A stretch of 64,000 bases of DNA from Exiguobacterium sp. s124 (GTDB lineage Bacteria; Bacillota; Bacilli; Exiguobacteriales; Exiguobacteriaceae): positions 1,488,001 through 1,552,000 of the forward strand of contig NZ_JACSKH010000001.1 of NCBI RefSeq assembly GCF_018617485.1, written 5' to 3'. Under the pieces are notes generated by a model that had not been told where the DNA came from, did not search any database, and worked only from the letters and a program-made list of their open reading frames with translations. Positions within the stretch are counted from its first letter, which is position 1; each line of letters starts with the position of its first letter. The translations under genes and the position numbers were made by a program. Shown one piece after another: positions 5,532 through 14,229 of the stretch.

Positions 5532-7736
5532 TTATTCATTTTGTTCGTTTATTAAAACTTTCCGAGGTTTTGAACCTTCTGACGGACCTACGTACCCCGC
5601 CTCTTCGAGCGAGTCAATTAAGCGTGCTGCCCGATTATAGCCAATTCGAAATCTTCGTTGAATCATCGATGTCGAAGCCGTTTCTTGGGTGACGATGAAT
5701 TGAACGACTTCTCCGAACAATGAATCATCGGAGTCGATTGTCGTCACCTCTTCTTCTTTCGGCATCATCGCTTCCACATACTGTGCTCGTTGCTGGGCGA
5801 TGACATGATTGACGACCGTTTCGACTTCTTGATCGGAAACGAACGCACCTTGGACACGTACTGGTTTGTTCATCCCGTTTGCAAGCATCAGCATGTCGCC
5901 ACGCCCAAGTAGTTTCTCTGCTCCTCCTCCGTCCAAGATTGTCCGGGAATCGGTTTGTGAAGAGACTGCAAACGCGATTCGAGACGGAATGTTTGCTTTA
6001 ATGACCCCTGTAATGACGTCGACAGATGGACGTTGTGTCGCCAAGACCATATGAATCCCTGCGGCCCGTGCCATTTGTGCGAGGCGCATGATGGCGTCCT
6101 CGACGTCATTTGAAGCGACCATCATCAAATCCGCCAACTCATCGACAATGACAACAATAAACGGTAGACGCTTCGCATCCTCATCATCGGACTGATCGAC
6201 GAGTTCATTGTACCCTTCAATGTTACGGACACCATAGCGACTGAACAGCTCATATCGTCTTTCCATCTCGGCGACGACTTGTTTCAATGCCTGTGCTGCT
6301 TTTTTCGGGTCTGTGACGACCGGTGTCAACAAATGTGGGACGCCGTTGTAGACATTCAGCTCAACCATTTTTGGGTCGATCATCATGAGACGGACCTCGT
6401 CTGGTCGAGAGCGCATCAGTATGGATACAATCATTCCATTAATACAGACTGATTTACCGGAACCTGTCGATCCGGCCACGAGTAAGTGTGGCATTTTGTT
6501 TAATGAGATGCCAACAGTCTCCCCACTAATGCTTCGTCCGAGTGCGACGAGTAGCTTTGAATCGTCCTGTCTCACTGGGTCTGCTTCAAGCACTTCTCGT
6601 AAACAGACTGGAGCGACTTCCTGGTTCGGTACCTCAATTCCAATCGCCGCCTTACCCGGGATTGGTGCCTCGATTCGGATGTCTTTCGCGGCAAGTGCAA
6701 GTGCGAGATCATCGCTAAGCGAAGTGATTCGACTGACCTTCACACCAATGTCCGGTTGTAACTCATACTTTGTGACGGTCGGCCCAAGGTGAATTTTTAA
6801 TACTTTCACGCCTACACCAAACGACTTTAATGTCTTCACCAATTTAGCGGCATTCTCTTTTAAACGCGCATTTTCTCCAGATAAATCGGTGATTACCGGT
6901 TCTTTTAAATTGGAGAACGGAGGGAGTTCATATGTGTCCGAGACGTCTTGCGCCGCGGTCATCATCATTTCCTCGGTCGAAATGGAAGCGTCTGTTTCCG
7001 TAGAAGGTGCCGCTTTGGTTTCCTCTTTTTTCTCTGCCACCACTTTCTCACTGAACCCGACAATCGGGATATCATTCATCGTGACCACATCTGACTCCGA
7101 CTCTACATCCGAATCGGCTTCCACCAGCAACGGTTTAGGCGAAGATTTACGAGACCCTTTCGGTTCCTGCTTCTGCTTGATCTCTTGTTTTTTCTCTGCT
7201 TTCGGCCTTGACTGCCATTCCTTTTTCACAGCCACAACAGATTCCTCTAAACGATGGTAAATCGTTCCCCAAATCGTTGGCACATAAAGGGATACACCGA
7301 CAATCAAACAGACAATGCCTAAAAAGATGAGGCCGAAGTCAGAAAATAAGTATTGGTTTAAGCCATAAAGTGCACCGTTGACGCCGCCTCGTTCTTCTCC
7401 CCACAGTAAATCACCGAACAGTAAAAAGGACGCGGTCATACTGAACAGTCCAGCTCGCTCCATCGGTTTCATCGGTTTCAGTAAAATCCATAATAAGATG
7501 GCAATCATCAGATACGTGAGCGCACCCCAGCCACCAAACAGATATTCGGACAAGTCAGATAGTTGTCGACCGATCCATCCGAAATCGAATAAGGCAAATA
7601 CGAATGCGACGATGGAAAGAACGAAAATTCCCCATCCATATGTACGTGGCGCAATCGGTTGTTTTTTCCGTTTTCTCGTGTTTCGCGTTGCTGGTCGCTT
7701 CCGCTTCACGGGTGTCTTACTCGTTTTTTGAGCCAC
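5532..7736 (-). CDS. ftsK: DNA translocase FtsK/SpoIIIE family
   Basis: A 734-residue membrane-anchored hexameric DNA pump that clears chromosomal DNA from the division septum. The basic N-terminus ([15 protein letters not shown]) is followed by about four membrane helices, then a charged Glu/Lys/Ser linker. The motor domain has Walker [10 protein letters not shown] and Walker [14 protein letters not shown]. The C-terminal gamma winged helix ([17 protein letters not shown]) reads orientation sequences. The start is GTG 7736: CCTCCT (7744-7749 on the plus strand) gives an AGGAGG Shine-Dalgarno 7 bases ahead, and the longer frame has no such site and runs into the rnjB terminator. It occupies the spoIIIE place of B. 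subtilis, but no sporulation genes are nearby, so a vegetative FtsK role is likelier. Confidence 0.95.
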
Positions 7737-7749
7737 TTCAGTTCCTCCT

Positions 7750-7783
7750 AAAAAAAGAAGGCAAAAGTCTGATGACTTTTGCC
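7750..7783 (-). terminator. Intrinsic terminator of rnjB, abutting the ftsK ribosome-binding site
   Basis: A perfect 10-base stem (7760-7769 / 7774-7783) with a 4-base loop. On the minus strand it is followed by a T-rich tract (7750-7759). The T tract ends exactly where the ftsK AGGAGG begins. Confidence 0.85.
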
Positions 7784-7797
7784 TCACTCTCATTCCA

Positions 7798-9465
7798 TTA
7801 AATCTCCATGATGATCGGCAAGATCATCGGACGACGTTTCGTCTGCTCGAATAAGAAGACGCTAAGTCGCTCGCGGATATTTGATTTCAATTCGGTCCAA
7901 TCACTGCCAGCTTGCAGACTCTTTTCAATCTGTTTTGTGACAATACGGTTTGCCTCTGAAATCATTTCTTCCGATTCGCGCATATACACGAATCCACGTG
8001 AGATGAGTTCAGGTCCTGAAATCAATTTCTTCTGTTTCCGATTCAATGTGACCACGCAAAGCACGACCCCATCTTGTGATAACAAGCGACGGTCTCGTAA
8101 GACGATATTTCCGACGTCACCGACACCGATCCCATCAATCAAGACGTTACCTGCAGGAACTTTACGGCTCATGCGGGCTTTACGACCTGTGAACTCGACG
8201 ACATCTCCTTTTTCAACGATGAAGATGTTGTTCGGTTTGACCCCTACTTGTTCAGCGAGTTTCGAGTGTGCCATTTGCATCCGGTATTCGCCGTGAATCG
8301 GTAAGAAATATTTCGGTTTGACGAGATTGAGCATCAACTTCAACTCTTCCGCCGAACCGTGTCCGGATACGTGAACTTTACGTTGGTTGTAAATGACGTT
8401 TGCCCCAGAACGGAACAATAGGTCAATCGTTTTCGAAACCGACTTCTCATTCCCCGGAATCGGAGTTGCCGCAATGACGACCGTGTCGTTCAAGCGAATG
8501 TTTACTTGCTTGTGCGCATTACGTGCCATCCGAGTCAACGCCGCCATCGGCTCCCCTTGAGATCCCGTCGTCAAGATGACGACTTTGTTGTCAGGAAGAC
8601 GATTCACTTGCGATAACTCGACAAGTGTCTTCGCTTTGAAACGTAAGTAGTTTAATTTTTGTGCGACTTCGACGATGTTGACCATACTGCGACCAACGAC
8701 CGCGACTTTGCGGTCATTCGCTTCTGCGGCTGCAAAGACTTGTTGTAAGCGGTGAACGTTCGAGGCGAATGATGCCACGATGACACGACCTTCGGCTTGA
8801 TAGATCACATCGTTCAATTCAGCACCGACAATCGATTCTGAACCGGTTTGACCCGGACGCTCTGCGTTTGTTGAATCGGAAAGCAATGCAAGTACTCCGC
8901 GCTGTCCAATCGCCGCCAATTTGTTAAAGTCAGATTGTTTCCCGTCGACTGGCGTGTAATCAAACTTGAAATCTCCGGTATGGACGATGGCACCTTGAGA
9001 TGTTTGAATACAAACACCGACACAGTCGGGAATCGAGTGATTGACGCGGAAGAACGTGACGAGATGATCAGCGATAGTCAATTTCGTTTTGGCATCAATC
9101 ATGCGAAGGTCGACTTCTTTCAACAAATCGGCCTCTTTTAATTTCAGTTCAATCAATCCGAGAGTCAACTTCGTCCCGTATACCGGAACATGTTTTAAAT
9201 CGCGTAGGACATAACTGAGTCCACCAATATGGTCTTCGTGACCGTGAGTGATGAAAATCGCTCGGACGCGATCCTTGTTTTCTTTTAAATAAGTGATGTC
9301 TGGGATAACAATATCAATCCCGAGCATCTCATCGCCTGGAAACATGAGACCGGCATCGATGACGAAGATGTCGTCGTCTAGCTCCACGACGTACATGTTC
9401 TTCCCGATTTCGCCTACGCCTCCAAGCGCAAAGACGCTAATATTCTCTGTCTTCTTTTTTGACAC
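7798..9465 (-). CDS. rnjB: Ribonuclease J, J2-like
   Basis: A 555-residue metallo-beta-lactamase/beta-CASP RNase of mRNA and rRNA processing (5'-3' exonuclease and endonuclease, paired with RNase J1 in Bacillales). The metal motif HGHEDHIGG lies at about 74-82, HTGDFKFD further on, and the beta-CASP and C-terminal regions follow with [13 protein letters not shown] and ending [12 protein letters not shown]. The start is GTG 9465, with AGGAGG 9 bases ahead. The TTG of the longer frame is only 3 bases from that site. The N-terminus ([10 protein letters not shown]) and position beside ftsK match rnjB of B. subtilis. Unlike my recollection of Bacillus J2, the catalytic motif is complete. It has its own promoter and terminator. 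Confidence 0.92.
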
Positions 9466-9521
9466 TAACAAAAACCTCCTAAATGTTTCATATTCTGTTT
9501 CGTCCCTTATCGCTACTGAAT

Positions 9522-9559: not shown

Positions 9560-10213
9560 TCAATCTAGTAGAGGTTTTAGTGTATCGGCAAGCGGTGCGA
9601 TTGCTTTCTTGTCCGGTTGCTTCCCTGCGACGAGTTGTCGGATTGACAAGCCAAAGTCCATCTGGAGATGCGGATAGTCAGGGAATGAGTTCCAGTCGCC
9701 TCCCCATTCGAAACCAAGCGCCTTTCCTAATTCCCCAAGCTCTTGCCAGTCTGGTACATCGTTGCGATTACGATCCGTGCTTAAGTCATAGTCCGTTTTA
9801 TTGTTATGGATGATGACAAAATCGACCGCCAGTCCATAATTGTGATAGCTTTGACCTGCTTTCGCATTCGTCACCACTTGTCCCGGTTCAGAACGCCCTT
9901 GTGCATATAAAGCGTTTTGTTCTTTTGCTGAACGATACCCTGACGTCAATCGAACTTCGAGATCGAGACAAGAATGAGCCAACCGTACGAACATCGCACC
10001 ACGTTCCGCAACTTGCGGATGAAGGCGATCAAAATCAATCTTCGTTCTTGCCAATATCGTGTTTTCCGCCCCTACGTCCCGGACACACATGTCCGCTTCA
10101 AACGTGGGCTCATCCACCCATGGCACAGGTTCTGGCTGCATATAAAAGTAAGCAAGTATGATACCGATCAAGAAGGCGACCATCGCAAGTGATAACACGC
10201 CGGTCCATCTCAT
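9560..10213 (-). CDS. Membrane-anchored M15-family peptidoglycan peptidase (CwlK/VanY-like)
   Basis: A 217-residue zinc peptidase of the LAS group that cuts peptidoglycan stem peptides (L-Ala-D-Glu endopeptidase or D,D-carboxypeptidase). One N-terminal membrane segment (about 5-24) suggests an anchored protein with the enzyme outside the cell. The domain shows SGYRS (91-95), SYHNYGLAVDF (122-132, zinc ligands H124 and D131), and a C-terminal W-GGDW...DYPHLQ segment with the third ligand H182. Its start overlaps the femX stop (ATGA), so it is the last gene of a murE-femX-peptidase operon. CwlK-type L,D-endopeptidase is my preferred subclass because of the spacing, but the exact bond cut is not certain. 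Confidence 0.85.
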   Translation of the reverse strand: MRWTGVLSLAMVAFLIGIILAYFYMQPEPVPWVDEPTFEADMCVRDVGAENTILARTKIDFDRLHPQVAERGAMFVRLAHSCLDLEVRLTSGYRSAKEQNALYAQGRSEPGQVVTNAKAGQSYHNYGLAVDFVIIHNNKTDYDLSTDRNRNDVPDWQELGELGKALGFEWGGDWNSFPDYPHLQMDFGLSIRQLVAGKQPDKKAIAPLADTLKPLLD

Positions 10214-11463
10214 CTTCTTAACCGTTTACGGAGTCCTTTAAGGATGGGCAATCCTTTTTCGAGTGCCATATAGAACGGGCGATTTAAGACGAGGTCGAAT
10301 TCTCCGACTTTCTCAATCATGTCGCTCCCCCATCCAGACTTGAATGCATAGAGACCCGCATATTCATCATCAGGATCCGTGCTACCCGAGACGCCACCAA
10401 AATCATAACGCTCGGCTCCACTCTCTTTCGCCGCTTGCATCATCGTCCATTGCATCAAATGGTTTGGCATGAATTCACGGAACTCATTTGACGAGGCACC
10501 ATATAAGTAATAAGAACGTCGTCCCGCAAGTGTCAAAAGCCCACCTGATAAGACAAGTCCATCCGGGTAAGCCTGATTCAATTCGACGAGCTCAGGTAAC
10601 GCTTGCTCGGCTTTTTGAATTTGTGCCACCGTCTGTTCTTTACGATTATGAAGGCTCGTTCGTTTCTTTTCGACGGTTTCCTTCTCTAACCCACGTTCAA
10701 TTTTTTCCAACTCTTTTTTCGCTTTCTCAAGCGTTGCTTGTTGCTGATCGAGCGCAATTTTAGGTTCGAGTTTTGTTAAAAAGAGTCGAGCATCGTTCGG
10801 TTGGAGACAATCATATAGATTCTCAAAATAATCAAGACCGCGAATGGCAAACCCGTCACGTTCTCCCGTCACTCTCATGAGATCGGCGAACGTTTTTAAT
10901 CCATCACGACCGACTTCCTTACAGACGATTCCTTTTTTCTCTGCTAAACGAACGTTATAGCGGAATTTATGATGGAATTTCGCAAAAATTTCTTTTTCAC
11001 TCGGACGTAAATCTGTCTCCATCGTGAAACGAGGTTGTGCGTAATCGAAGCCACCCCCGTACCCTTTGTGCCGAAATCCGACGGCTTCCATTTCTGTCAA
11101 GAGACCCGGCATCTCATCGCGGTCGATGTTCGGATCGATTTTGATGACGATTGCTTTATGGTTCGCAGCGACACGCTTTGCTTCTTTTACAAGCGCTTGG
11201 AGCGATGCCACGTCATCATAGTCTACGACAAAGCCACGTGGCGCATAACATAACGTATATGGTAGTTTCGGGACACGTTTAAATAACAACAAAGCCACAC
11301 CGGTCGTCAATCCGTCGCGGGCAACTGCGATTCGTTCTGACGTCCATCCGTTCTGTCGTTTTACATCTCCCCAACTTGATAGTTGTAATAGGTCGCCACG
11401 GTCGTGTTTTTTGACGAAGTCGTCATGTTCTTTTTCTGTCAACGTAACTGGTTGTACTGCCAT
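10210..11463 (-). CDS. femX: FemX/FemAB-family aminoacyltransferase for the peptidoglycan cross-bridge
   Basis: A 417-residue cytoplasmic enzyme that adds an amino acid from aminoacyl-tRNA to the lysine side chain of lipid II (glycine in FemX/FmhB; other residues in relatives). It has two GNAT-like halves. The first includes LLQLSSWGDVK and LCYAPRGFVVDYDD, and the second includes YYLYGASS and YDFGGVSG. A charged coiled-coil arm of about 60 residues (about 245-305, rich in Glu/Lys/Gln) separates them, as in FemA/FemX. It lies 3 bases after murE and overlaps the M15 peptidase gene. Glycine as substrate is inferred from the L-Lys-Gly wall type known for Exiguobacterium. Confidence 0.88.
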   Translation of the reverse strand: MAVQPVTLTEKEHDDFVKKHDRGDLLQLSSWGDVKRQNGWTSERIAVARDGLTTGVALLLFKRVPKLPYTLCYAPRGFVVDYDDVASLQALVKEAKRVAANHKAIVIKIDPNIDRDEMPGLLTEMEAVGFRHKGYGGGFDYAQPRFTMETDLRPSEKEIFAKFHHKFRYNVRLAEKKGIVCKEVGRDGLKTFADLMRVTGERDGFAIRGLDYFENLYDCLQPNDARLFLTKLEPKIALDQQQATLEKAKKELEKIERGLEKETVEKKRTSLHNRKEQTVAQIQKAEQALPELVELNQAYPDGLVLSGGLLTLAGRRSYYLYGASSNEFREFMPNHLMQWTMMQAAKESGAERYDFGGVSGSTDPDDEYAGLYAFKSGWGSDMIEKVGEFDLVLNRPFYMALEKGLPILKGLRKRLRR

Positions 11464-11466
11464 AAA

Positions 11467-12927
11467 TCATGCTTCCTCCGTATTCAAAATGGTCGATCGG
11501 ACAATCGCCTCTTCGTCGAGTGGCAATTTCTCGTTTCCGATAATCTGATATTTTTCGTGCCCTTTTCCTGCTAACACGATGATATTGTCCGGTTTGGCTA
11601 AGCTTGCCGCATAACGGACCGCTTCTTCCCGGTCGCCGATTTCGACGTAGTTATCGTGCGTCATTCCGGCCGCAATCCCTTTTGTAATGGATTCATACGC
11701 TTCGAAGCGCGGATCGTCTGTCGTAATGATGACCGTCCCCGCATAAGTCGATGCCATCTCCCCCATAGCCGGACGTTTCGTCACGTCACGATTACCGCCT
11801 GTACCGATTAAAAAGACAATCTTCTCTTTCGGTACGCCGACGAGCGATTTTAAACATTGTTCAATCCCATCCGGAGTATGAGCATAGTCCGCGTATACGT
11901 TGTAACCTGGAACGTCTAGGCGCTGCATGCGTCCTTTGGCCGGATGAATCATTTCAAGTGCTCGAGCGATTTTCTCCAATGAGTATCCTGCTGCAAGGAG
12001 ACAACCTGTCGCGAGCAATAAATTATACACGTTGAAACGACCGATAAACTGAACGGTCACCGGTAGGCGTGTGCCTTGATAGTTCAACACAAAGCTCGTT
12101 TGAGACAACGTCTGTTCAATCTCAGACGCCATCAAATCAGCCATCGTGTCGATTCCATACGTCAATACTTTTGCACCTGTCATCGTCTCATATAGGGCAC
12201 TCTGTGCATCATCTGCATTCAAGACAGCCACTTTCCCACGTGAAGCCATTTGACCGAGCTGTGCGAAGAGCAATCCCTTCGCTCGCGCATAGTTTTCGAA
12301 CGTCCCGTGGAAATCAAGATGATCATGCGTCAAATTCGTGAATCCAACGATATCAAAATCCGTTCCGATGACGCGGCCGAGCTCTAAACCGTGCGATGAC
12401 ACTTCCATCATGACGTCCGTCACACCTTCATCACGCATTTGCGCCAACAATTGTTGAAGTTCTGAACTTTGAGGTGTCGTGTTTTTACTCGGCACGACTT
12501 TGTCATTAATTCGCACTTCGACTGTGCCAATCAATCCGGTCGAGTGTCCGAGGACGTCGAGGACGTCCCGTAAAATCGTCGTCGTTGTCGTTTTACCGTT
12601 CGTTCCAGTGATTCCGAACAGTCGCATCTGTTCAGAAGGATACGCATAAAATGCTGATGCCAAAAGCCCGATTGAGCGAGAACTATCACGCACAATCAAG
12701 TTCGGAACGGAAAGTTCGAGCGGTCGTTCACTGACAACCGCAACTGCCCCTCGTTCTACCGCTTGAGACGCATATTCATGTCCATCGACCGTATATCCTT
12801 TGATGGCGACAAACAATGTCCCCGGGACAACTTCCCGCGAATCGGTTGTCACGTGAGTCACCACGATGCCTTCAAGATTTGGTTGGTTAATTAGTTGTAT
12901 CGTCTTCACTAAATCCGTTAAGTTCAA
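11467..12927 (-). CDS. murE: UDP-N-acetylmuramoyl-tripeptide synthetase MurE
   Basis: An approximately 486-residue Mur ligase that adds the third stem-peptide residue to UDP-MurNAc-L-Ala-D-Glu. It shows the N-terminal uridine-binding domain (TDSREVVPGTLFVA), the ATP loop GITGTNGKTTTTT, the central NLTHDHLDFHG segment, and C-terminal GKGHE. The specificity motif reads DDPRFE (about 404-409) rather than the DNPR expected of diaminopimelate enzymes, so sequence alone does not settle lysine versus DAP. The neighbouring femX argues for lysine. The start is uncertain: TTG 12927 (AAGGG 6 bases ahead, family-like N-terminus NLTDLVKTI) is preferred, and GTG 12945 (AGGA ahead) is possible. It is the first gene of the cassette. 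Confidence 0.92.
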   Translation of the reverse strand: MNLTDLVKTIQLINQPNLEGIVVTHVTTDSREVVPGTLFVAIKGYTVDGHEYASQAVERGAVAVVSERPLELSVPNLIVRDSSRSIGLLASAFYAYPSEQMRLFGITGTNGKTTTTTILRDVLDVLGHSTGLIGTVEVRINDKVVPSKNTTPQSSELQQLLAQMRDEGVTDVMMEVSSHGLELGRVIGTDFDIVGFTNLTHDHLDFHGTFENYARAKGLLFAQLGQMASRGKVAVLNADDAQSALYETMTGAKVLTYGIDTMADLMASEIEQTLSQTSFVLNYQGTRLPVTVQFIGRFNVYNLLLATGCLLAAGYSLEKIARALEMIHPAKGRMQRLDVPGYNVYADYAHTPDGIEQCLKSLVGVPKEKIVFLIGTGGNRDVTKRPAMGEMASTYAGTVIITTDDPRFEAYESITKGIAAGMTHDNYVEIGDREEAVRYAASLAKPDNIIVLAGKGHEKYQIIGNEKLPLDEEAIVRSTILNTEEA

Positions 12928-12981
12928 GTCTTTCCCTTCTTTCACCTGTATCCTATCCAAACTAAAGAATACCTCTTAATC

Positions 12982-13010
12982 AGTGTAGAGAACTTACAAT
13001 TCGGTTTCAA
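12982..13010 (-). promoter_or_regulatory. Sigma-A promoter of the murE-femX-peptidase operon
   Basis: On the minus strand, TTGAAA (13005-13010), a 17-base spacer, and TACACT (12982-12987), directly after the mlpA stop. Both hexamers are close to consensus, so the cassette has its own transcription unit. Confidence 0.65.
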
Positions 13011-13011
13011 G

Positions 13012-14229
13012 TCACGCTTCGTTTGGGAGGACGTATGACTTCGCTGGTTGATGTGTCAATACTTCACGAATCAATGCATTGACCTCATCGCGCTCGATTC
13101 GCTCCACTTTTTGAATCACGTGTTCGATCGGCTCTACTTCATCGAGTAACAGCAAGTTTCGACCATTTCGGTTCATGCGTGCGCTCGAGCTTTCATTCCC
13201 TAGGACGAGTGAACCTTTTAATTGGCGTTTCCCTTTATCGACTTCTTCATCCGTCAATCCTTCTTCGAAGAGACGCTTCAATTCTCTCTCTAAAATGAAT
13301 TCGACTTGATTCAACGTGTCTGGTGACGTTCCGACATAGATGGTGAACGTCCCATGATCCGCAAACGTCGTGTAGTATGAATAAATCGAGTAGGCCAATC
13401 CTTCTTCTTCACGAATCGATTGAAACAGGCGCGAGGACATCGTCGCACCGATGGCATTGTTCATGAGTGCCAAGTGGGGTAACCGGTCATCCGTTGCCGA
13501 AATGGCCTCGTAGTTCCAACAGAGGTGCGCCTGTTCCGTTTCCTTTCGTTTCGTCAACGTGTCATCGAACAGTTCTGGTTGAGTGAGTTCTTTCGACGAT
13601 TCCCTAGAAGGGATGTTGGCAAACCTACGCTTCACTGCCTCCATCAATTCTTCAGAGACATGTCCAGCGATGGAGACGACAATTTCTTCTGCCACGTATC
13701 GCTCTTGTAAATAGTCAACGAGCTGATCCCGCGTCAATCGATTGACGCTTTCCTCTGTTCCAAGAATCGGTTGTGCGAGAATATCATCACGATATGCCGC
13801 AATCGCCAACAGTTCATGGACGAGGTCTTCTGGCGTATCCTCATACATTTTTATTTCTTCCACGACGACCCGTTTCTCTTTCTCTAATTCGGTCTCATCA
13901 AGTACCGAATCAAATAACATATCCGTCAAGACGTCGAGCGCCATGACCGCATGTTCGTCAAGTGTCTTCACATAAAAACAAGTGTGGTCTTTCGAGGTGA
14001 AGGCGTTGACGCTTCCACCGAGTTCATCAAAAAAGGAAGCAATTTCTTTCGCGTTTTTCGACGACGTCCCTTTGAACAACATATGTTCAATCAAATGACT
14101 GATCCCGATGTTTTCAAACGACTCCGTTCGTGTCCCGGCTTTAATAAAGACACCGGTCGACGTACTGCGAGAGCCTTCAATCGGTTCGATGATGACGCGG
14201 ACACCGTTTTGTAGTGTCATCCATTCCAT
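13012..14229 (-). CDS. mlpA: M16-family zinc metallopeptidase MlpA/YmxG
   Basis: A 405-residue cytoplasmic inverzincin-type peptidase related to mitochondrial processing peptidase. The inverted zinc motif HLIEH (H45, H49) is intact. A downstream glutamate-rich stretch (VVVEEIKMYEDTPEDLVHE, about 118-136) supplies the third ligand. The C-terminal half is the inactive paired domain. Start ATG 14229 has AGGAG 7 bases ahead. It follows pnp as in B. subtilis, where the protein has been linked to regulation of protease genes; its true substrate is unknown to me. The ylxY gene found between pnp and mlpA in Bacillus is absent here. Confidence 0.92.
   Translation of the reverse strand: MEWMTLQNGVRVIIEPIEGSRSTSTGVFIKAGTRTESFENIGISHLIEHMLFKGTSSKNAKEIASFFDELGGSVNAFTSKDHTCFYVKTLDEHAVMALDVLTDMLFDSVLDETELEKEKRVVVEEIKMYEDTPEDLVHELLAIAAYRDDILAQPILGTEESVNRLTRDQLVDYLQERYVAEEIVVSIAGHVSEELMEAVKRRFANIPSRESSKELTQPELFDDTLTKRKETEQAHLCWNYEAISATDDRLPHLALMNNAIGATMSSRLFQSIREEEGLAYSIYSYYTTFADHGTFTIYVGTSPDTLNQVEFILERELKRLFEEGLTDEEVDKGKRQLKGSLVLGNESSSARMNRNGRNLLLLDEVEPIEHVIQKVERIERDEVNALIREVLTHQPAKSYVLPNEA

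Follow-up and report, generated by a model that had tools for sequence, protein, structure and literature searches.

A three-gene operon, murE–femX–M15, lies in the 64,000-nucleotide stretch of Exiguobacterium sp. s124 analysed here (contig NZ_JACSKH010000001.1, positions 1,488,001 to 1,552,000; hereafter the window), in a genome of 2.8 Mb. The operon is real, old and well conserved, and it both fits and explains the wall chemistry known for the genus. We regard it as probable that the three genes constitute an operon for an L-lysine–glycine (L-Lys–Gly) cell wall, and that murE was lost from the dcw (division and cell wall) cluster and genes were exchanged at the present site. In this explanation, MurE1, the murE product, would add L-lysine to the stem peptide; FemX would attach a single glycine to the side chain of the lipid II lysine, so that the bridge is one residue long; and an M15 peptidase anchored in the membrane would cleave stem peptides on its outer side, probably at the L-Ala–D-Glu bond. 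The dcw murE would have been lost in an ancestor shared by both Exiguobacterium genus-level groups, and the operon would have come to occupy the place of the asd–dapG–dapA segment of other families, in some cases preceded by ymxH–spoVFAB, while wall lysine would be supplied by a separate diaminopimelate (DAP)/lysine operon. We infer from sequence the single transcript, the specificity of MurE1, its division of labour with a second MurE and the bond cut by the peptidase; loss and insertion may or may not have been one event.

The operon and the site it occupies

The preliminary description of the window had placed the three genes between mlpA and the rnjB–ftsK pair, and their coordinates, strand and flanks are borne out (Table 1). 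All three lie on the minus strand, with 3 nt between murE and femX and a 4-nt overlap between femX and the M15 gene, a tight spacing that suggests one transcript. The order mlpA–murE–femX–M15–RNase J–ftsK recurs in 19 of 19 genomes of the genus, this one included (in one of them ftsK runs into the contig end). It also holds in the nine stretches read among the 19 sister-genus genomes that have femX and in every one of the 11 named Exiguobacterium loci, which include those of E. sibiricum and E. antarcticum and come in part from the same genomes.

Table 1. Features of the operon and its flanks in the window
Feature	Position	Strand	Basis
M15 metallopeptidase gene, N-terminal hydrophobic segment	9560..10213	-	PF13539; best PDB matches 2vo9 and 6akv; zinc-site motifs
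femX, FemABX aminoacyltransferase	10210..11463	-	PF02388, 283 bits; PDB 6snr; genome's only close FemABX protein
murE (MurE1)	11467..12927, likely TTG start 12927	-	Pfam Mur ligase domains; TIGR01085, 493 bits; 4c12; DDPR; conserved Shine–Dalgarno sequence
Promoter-like site TTGAAA-17-TACACT	12982..13010	-	gap after mlpA; scan and hexamer conservation
mlpA (M16 peptidase), upstream syntenic flank	13012..14229	-	gene calls, family search, synteny
Ribonuclease J gene at rnjB position, downstream syntenic flank	7798..9471	-	family search, synteny
ftsK/spoIIIE, downstream syntenic flank	5532..7793	-	family search, synteny

Other families of the class hold different genes at this site. Of 32 genomes searched, 27 gave an mlpA match, and the 20 of these that we read represent 19 other families: dapA follows mlpA in all 20, asd in 19 and an aspartokinase gene in 18, and the RNase J gene comes next in 18, the stretches read from the remaining two (L264 and L267) having none. 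In one genome (L255) the genes before asd encode YmxH, DpaA and DpaB, as confirmed by family search; a second (L271) has DpaA at the site, and in a third (L273, genome G042 of family f3) DpaB exceeds its cut-off and a DpaA match falls below it. With dapA after mlpA in every one of these 20 genomes, the replacement, first described by comparison with B. subtilis, is not a quirk of that comparison, and the swap in Exiguobacterium, set between flanks that remain syntenic, is most simply derived. That the lineage never had asd–dapG–dapA here, so that the swap is an artefact of the reference chosen, strikes us as very improbable: one genome each of families f5, f10, f25, f33 and f41 lacks an mlpA match at E 1e-30, so other arrangements do exist in the class, but all 20 genomes read around mlpA in the 19 families have dapA after it. 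(Families f10 and f41, not named by the search, we take to be staphylococcal.)

A second change concerns the dcw cluster, which in all 18 genomes of the family searched reads pbpB–murF–mraY–murD, with murE missing (the dcw genes other than murF, together with prfC and the aminotransferase of the lysine operon discussed below, were named by eye from sequence). The arrangement pbpB–murE–murF–mraY–murD is present in 7 of 43 named dcw loci, and loss of murE alone would turn it into the Exiguobacterium order. When murE lies outside dcw in other genera its usual neighbour is a prfC-like gene, found within 3 kb in 23 of 26 named non-dcw loci outside Exiguobacterium; in the f3, f10 and f41 genomes that we read, murE lies as near to one. 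The move of murE to a site beside mlpA and femX is Exiguobacterium's own.

The preliminary description had also given the operon its own promoter, TTGAAA-17-TACACT. The site is present at 13010-12982. All 19 genus genomes retain both hexamers, next to an mlpA 3' end that differs among them, but the spacer is nearly invariant too. The sister genus (n = 9) is less uniform: three genomes have the same hexamers with other spacers, one has TTGAAA-17-TAAACT and five have none. A scan found 7 promoter-like sites in the region against 8.3 expected by chance; we therefore reject the match in the single sequence as evidence and count its conservation alone. For MurE itself, the start is probably TTG 12927 (486 aa) rather than 12960, because the conserved Shine–Dalgarno sequence AAGAAGGG stands 6 nt upstream of it in all 19 genus genomes and two of 13 genus sequences compared (L050 and L051) carry a one-base deletion that shifts the earlier TTG into another frame.

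MurE1 and its paralogues

MurE1 has the three Mur ligase domains, the P-loop GTNGKT, the carbamylated-lysine position (AKxxLF) and the motifs DDPR and GKGHE, and its best PDB match is the L-lysine ligase 4c12 (357 bits). The specificity motif is DDPR in MurE1, in four other orthologues of the family that we aligned and in 11 of 11 named Exiguobacterium loci, and so differs from the DNPR of DAP-type enzymes. It is also distinct from the DNPA given for S. aureus MurE in part of a structural study (PMC3829189), where the Asn and Arg of DNPR are described as holding the second DAP carboxylate, and the first Asp, with a Glu, as holding the side-chain amine.

The motif divides MurE loci by their genomic setting. 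Among at least 80 named loci, an uneven and non-exhaustive sample drawn by two peptide patterns, all 43 inside dcw carry DNPR, and of the 37 outside it 36 carry DDPR and one QDPR. The 36 comprise the 11 Exiguobacterium loci and 25 from Planococcus, Planomicrobium, Lysinibacillus, Metalysinibacillus, Ureibacillus, Rummeliibacillus, Paenisporosarcina, Caryophanon, Jeotgalibacillus (locus L208, seen on its upstream side only, as the contig stops just past murE), Kurthia and Metasolibacillus. The single QDPR locus belongs to Aquibacillus sediminis (L245:10001-11374). Genera with DDPR outside dcw, such as Planococcus, Lysinibacillus and Kurthia, are generally known as L-Lys types, and MurE1, being of the same non-DNPR kind, fits the L-Lys reading of the preliminary description. 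For one relative, Sporosarcina aquimarina, a figure legend gives a K stem (PMC6962226). In a MurE tree of 47 of the 116 aligned rows, built with the motif columns unmasked and the long-branched MurE3 and MurE4 left out, a branch supported at 100/100 sets the DNPR rows apart from all others. The relative order of MurE1, the planococcal–staphylococcal group and the DNPR enzymes is weakly supported (89/78), and for that reason we do not claim horizontal acquisition of MurE1.

Several observations weigh against a lysine ligase. The best NCBIfam model for MurE1 is NF001126, a 2,6-diaminopimelate ligase (537.6 bits against a cut-off of 373), while the L-lysine ligase model reaches 370.8 bits, below its own cut-off of 536. 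DDPR keeps the arginine that holds DAP. According to the sections available of two studies, an Ala-to-Arg exchange in the S. aureus motif pushed the Km for lysine beyond 20 mM and conferred no DAP activity (PMC3829189), and the DDPR enzyme of T. maritima, which adds lysine in vivo, can take DAP in vitro (PMC9434261); MurE1 may thus accept DAP as well and depend on the pool of DAP being small. One congener (G004; L031, L060:7210-8697) has a TAG inside murE1. Finally, every genome of the genus has at least one further MurE that could share or take the role. Were MurE1 an ordinary DAP ligase, with FemX and the M15 peptidase its neighbours by chance, the NF001126 score and the retained arginine would follow naturally; yet MurE2, MurE3 and MurE4, whose motifs are quite different, score above the cut-off of that model as well, so it is uninformative on specificity. 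NCBIfam in fact labels all four paralogues DAP ligases, a name that is probably wrong for MurE1. DDPR moreover recurs in 25 of 26 named non-dcw loci outside Exiguobacterium, it has Asp in place of the Asn described as contacting the DAP carboxylate (PMC3829189, in part), and the wall published for the genus, in the legend cited above, has L-Lys (PMC6962226). We accordingly give the DAP-ligase alternative very little credence and infer from motif, tree, operon and published wall chemistry that MurE1 adds L-Lys.

The further ligase, MurE2, is present in 19 of 19 genus genomes, at 40–43% identity, and also in the three sister-genus genomes searched; in this genome it lies at L065:9254-10801 (G000:C1:93253-94800) and carries HDVR. 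If MurE2 were the main lysine ligase, the operon might instead serve general envelope stress or remodelling, and the universal presence of MurE2, which keeps the lysine of the AKxxLF motif, is what such a role would need. In all 16 genomes where we read it, however, its motif is HD[VAT]R and lacks the first Asp, the residue that contacts the amine of the side chain in the S. aureus and E. coli enzymes, as part of PMC3829189 describes. MurE2 also evolves faster, with 55–62% identity between the genera against 70–71% for MurE1, and in 12 of 13 genus genomes its next neighbour is a YflT stress-protein gene, an arrangement absent from the three sister-genus genomes read. We thus consider this alternative unlikely and retain MurE1 as the wall ligase. 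A more speculative proposal, doubtful but worth stating, is that the two are anciently split ligases, MurE1 building the L-Lys–Gly wall and MurE2 loading another residue or nucleotide precursor to give a conditional second wall unit.

Two congeners carry additional copies. A third MurE (L066:8464-10050, genome G010), with HDPR, sits in a copper-resistance island among multicopper oxidase and metal-ATPase genes, and a fourth (L067:7772-9223, genome G011), with DDLN, adjoins an S11 D-Ala-D-Ala carboxypeptidase gene among transposase-like genes.

Predicted bridge formation and stem cleavage, and the supply of lysine

FemX aligns over residues 6–410 of its 417 with 6snr, a solved lipid II:glycine glycyltransferase that we take to be S. 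aureus FemX (E 8.9e-123). No other close FemABX protein was found in the genome, a second FemAB-like match being weak (40.8 bits with its neighbours). With one FemX and no FemA or FemB, a one-glycine bridge is predicted, FemX adding a single glycine to the lysine of lipid II. This agrees with the chemotype that a figure legend gives for two Exiguobacterium strains, stem Ae(q)Ka and bridge G (PMC6962226), although the legend cites the species description and the values may not have been measured in those strains. The near full-length match and the published Gly bridge together uphold the earlier assignment of a FemX-type cross-bridge enzyme. No MurT was found in the genome to account for any amidation of the second residue.

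Close relatives of FemX are few. Among the matches listed from a class sample of 398 genomes, identity of at least 39% was confined to the two Exiguobacterium genera, f10, f41 and one f2 genome, with weaker matches (25–33%) also in f25 and f33. No murE–femX pair occurred in the eight stretches with a femX relative read outside Exiguobacterium (five f10, two f41 and one f2 genome), nor was there a murE beside the second femX-like gene of sister-genus genome G277. The f2 genome (G019) carries its FemX relative (L113:9350-10603, 38–39%) near a partial racemase-like match and has a DNPR MurE; we presume it to be a DAP-type organism with a FemX-like enzyme.

The motifs SxHxxGxAxD and WGGxWxxFxDxPH, which include the zinc site (SxHxxGxAxD, DxPH), are present in all 14 M15 orthologues compared. 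Of the three proteins this is the least conserved (41–45% identity between the genera). Its best PDB matches are 2vo9, an L-alanyl-D-glutamate peptidase that is presumably Ply500, and 6akv, LysB4, whose specificity we take to be of the same L-Ala-D-Glu type; the D,D-dipeptidase/carboxypeptidase 4mur matches far more weakly. Both best matches share the M15 family and zinc-site motifs and are phage lysins, whereas the present gene lies on the chromosome and encodes a protein with a hydrophobic segment at its N terminus. The stem-peptide peptidase of the preliminary description is recognizable, probably as an L-Ala-D-Glu endopeptidase acting outside the membrane; a role in stem trimming or turnover would be a guess.

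The claim that the DAP cluster is gone holds for the site itself, where asd and dapA are missing and no tepA fits into the 4-nt gap between the RNase J gene and ftsK, but not for the genome. A search of the remaining sequence for asd, dapA and lysA found all three in one operon at G000:C8, which reads lysC–asd–dapA–dapB–dapD (acetyl type)–aminotransferase–racemase-like gene–lysA. Loss of the whole DAP pathway is thus rejected, and the suggestion that DAP synthesis disappeared along with the cluster finds no support. Because lysine is made from DAP, a retained DAP/lysine operon is to be expected, and DAP is presumably still made as lysine precursor. No DapF was found in this genome by a search that matched 9 of 14 control genomes. 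The racemase-like gene of the operon resembles alanine racemases (L062:4433-5521) and, beyond the family, is matched best by genes of f41 and f10 genomes. It is a candidate dapX-type epimerase; in the part of the E. sibiricum genome paper available, acetylated intermediates and a dapX-type epimerase are described (PMC2615787). The same source reports a joint increase in murADEI and dapABD at -2.5 C in E. sibiricum, which murE being left unspecified there.

Loss of asd–dapA from the site is not a necessary mark of the switch to lysine. Both f3 genomes read keep asd–dapA between mlpA and the RNase J gene, and one of them, G042, whose DDPR MurE groups with the planococcal genera, does so with DpaB beside; clearing the site was therefore not necessary for a switch to lysine. 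The preliminary description had taken the locus as a local record of a change from DAP to L-Lys, together with loss of sporulation. The published L-Lys stem and Gly bridge (PMC6962226, legend) bear out the wall, while the loss at the site is no necessary trace of it. The loss of sporulation is supported: parts of two papers give key sporulation genes as missing (PMC2615787, PMC3533761), and here no SpoVFA (DpaA) match reached the cut-off anywhere in the genome (best 31.6 bits against 319.65).

Relation to known systems and significance

The S. aureus wall, too, contains L-Lys and Gly, and the staphylococcal-type families f10 and f41 resemble Exiguobacterium in having FemX proteins that are 46–50% (f10) and 44% (f41) identical over nearly the full length, and MurEs on the non-DNPR side of the tree. 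They differ in that their MurE carries DNPA and lies by a prfC-like gene, that femX stands apart from murE in the five f10 and two f41 genomes read, and that each f10 genome gives two to four FemX matches at E 1e-30. Planococcus, Lysinibacillus, Ureibacillus, Kurthia and their kin share a DDPR MurE outside dcw (the 25 loci, 45–51% identity). In contrast to the operon described here, their murE mostly lies within 3 kb of a prfC-like gene, their flanks (up to 10 kb) contain no femX or M15 relative, and the two f3 genomes retain asd–dapA after mlpA. The MurE of Thermotoga maritima (PDB 4bub) has DDPR and adds lysine, as sections of PMC9434261 and PMC3829189 state; this enzyme of a distant bacterium, however, also adds D-Lys, and it scores lower against MurE1 (285 bits).

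The lysine–glycine wall of Exiguobacterium is already known. What is new, as far as we have searched, is the swap at the level of the locus together with a dcw cluster that lacks murE, the placing of murE beside the gene for its bridge enzyme, and the split MurE paralogues. A literature search found no paper on this locus, which is weak evidence since most subscription journals lay outside its coverage. The third stem residue, DAP or lysine, sets the cross-linking of the wall, its sensing by hosts and its susceptibility to lytic enzymes. In Exiguobacterium the switch to lysine would be legible in the gene map itself, murE having gone from dcw and a lysine-type ligase gene now being joined with that of its bridge enzyme where the DAP genes used to be. 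The DNPR/DDPR motif tells apart enzymes to which a single NCBIfam model gives the name of DAP ligase, and the locus points to a second, uncharacterised MurE in these bacteria.

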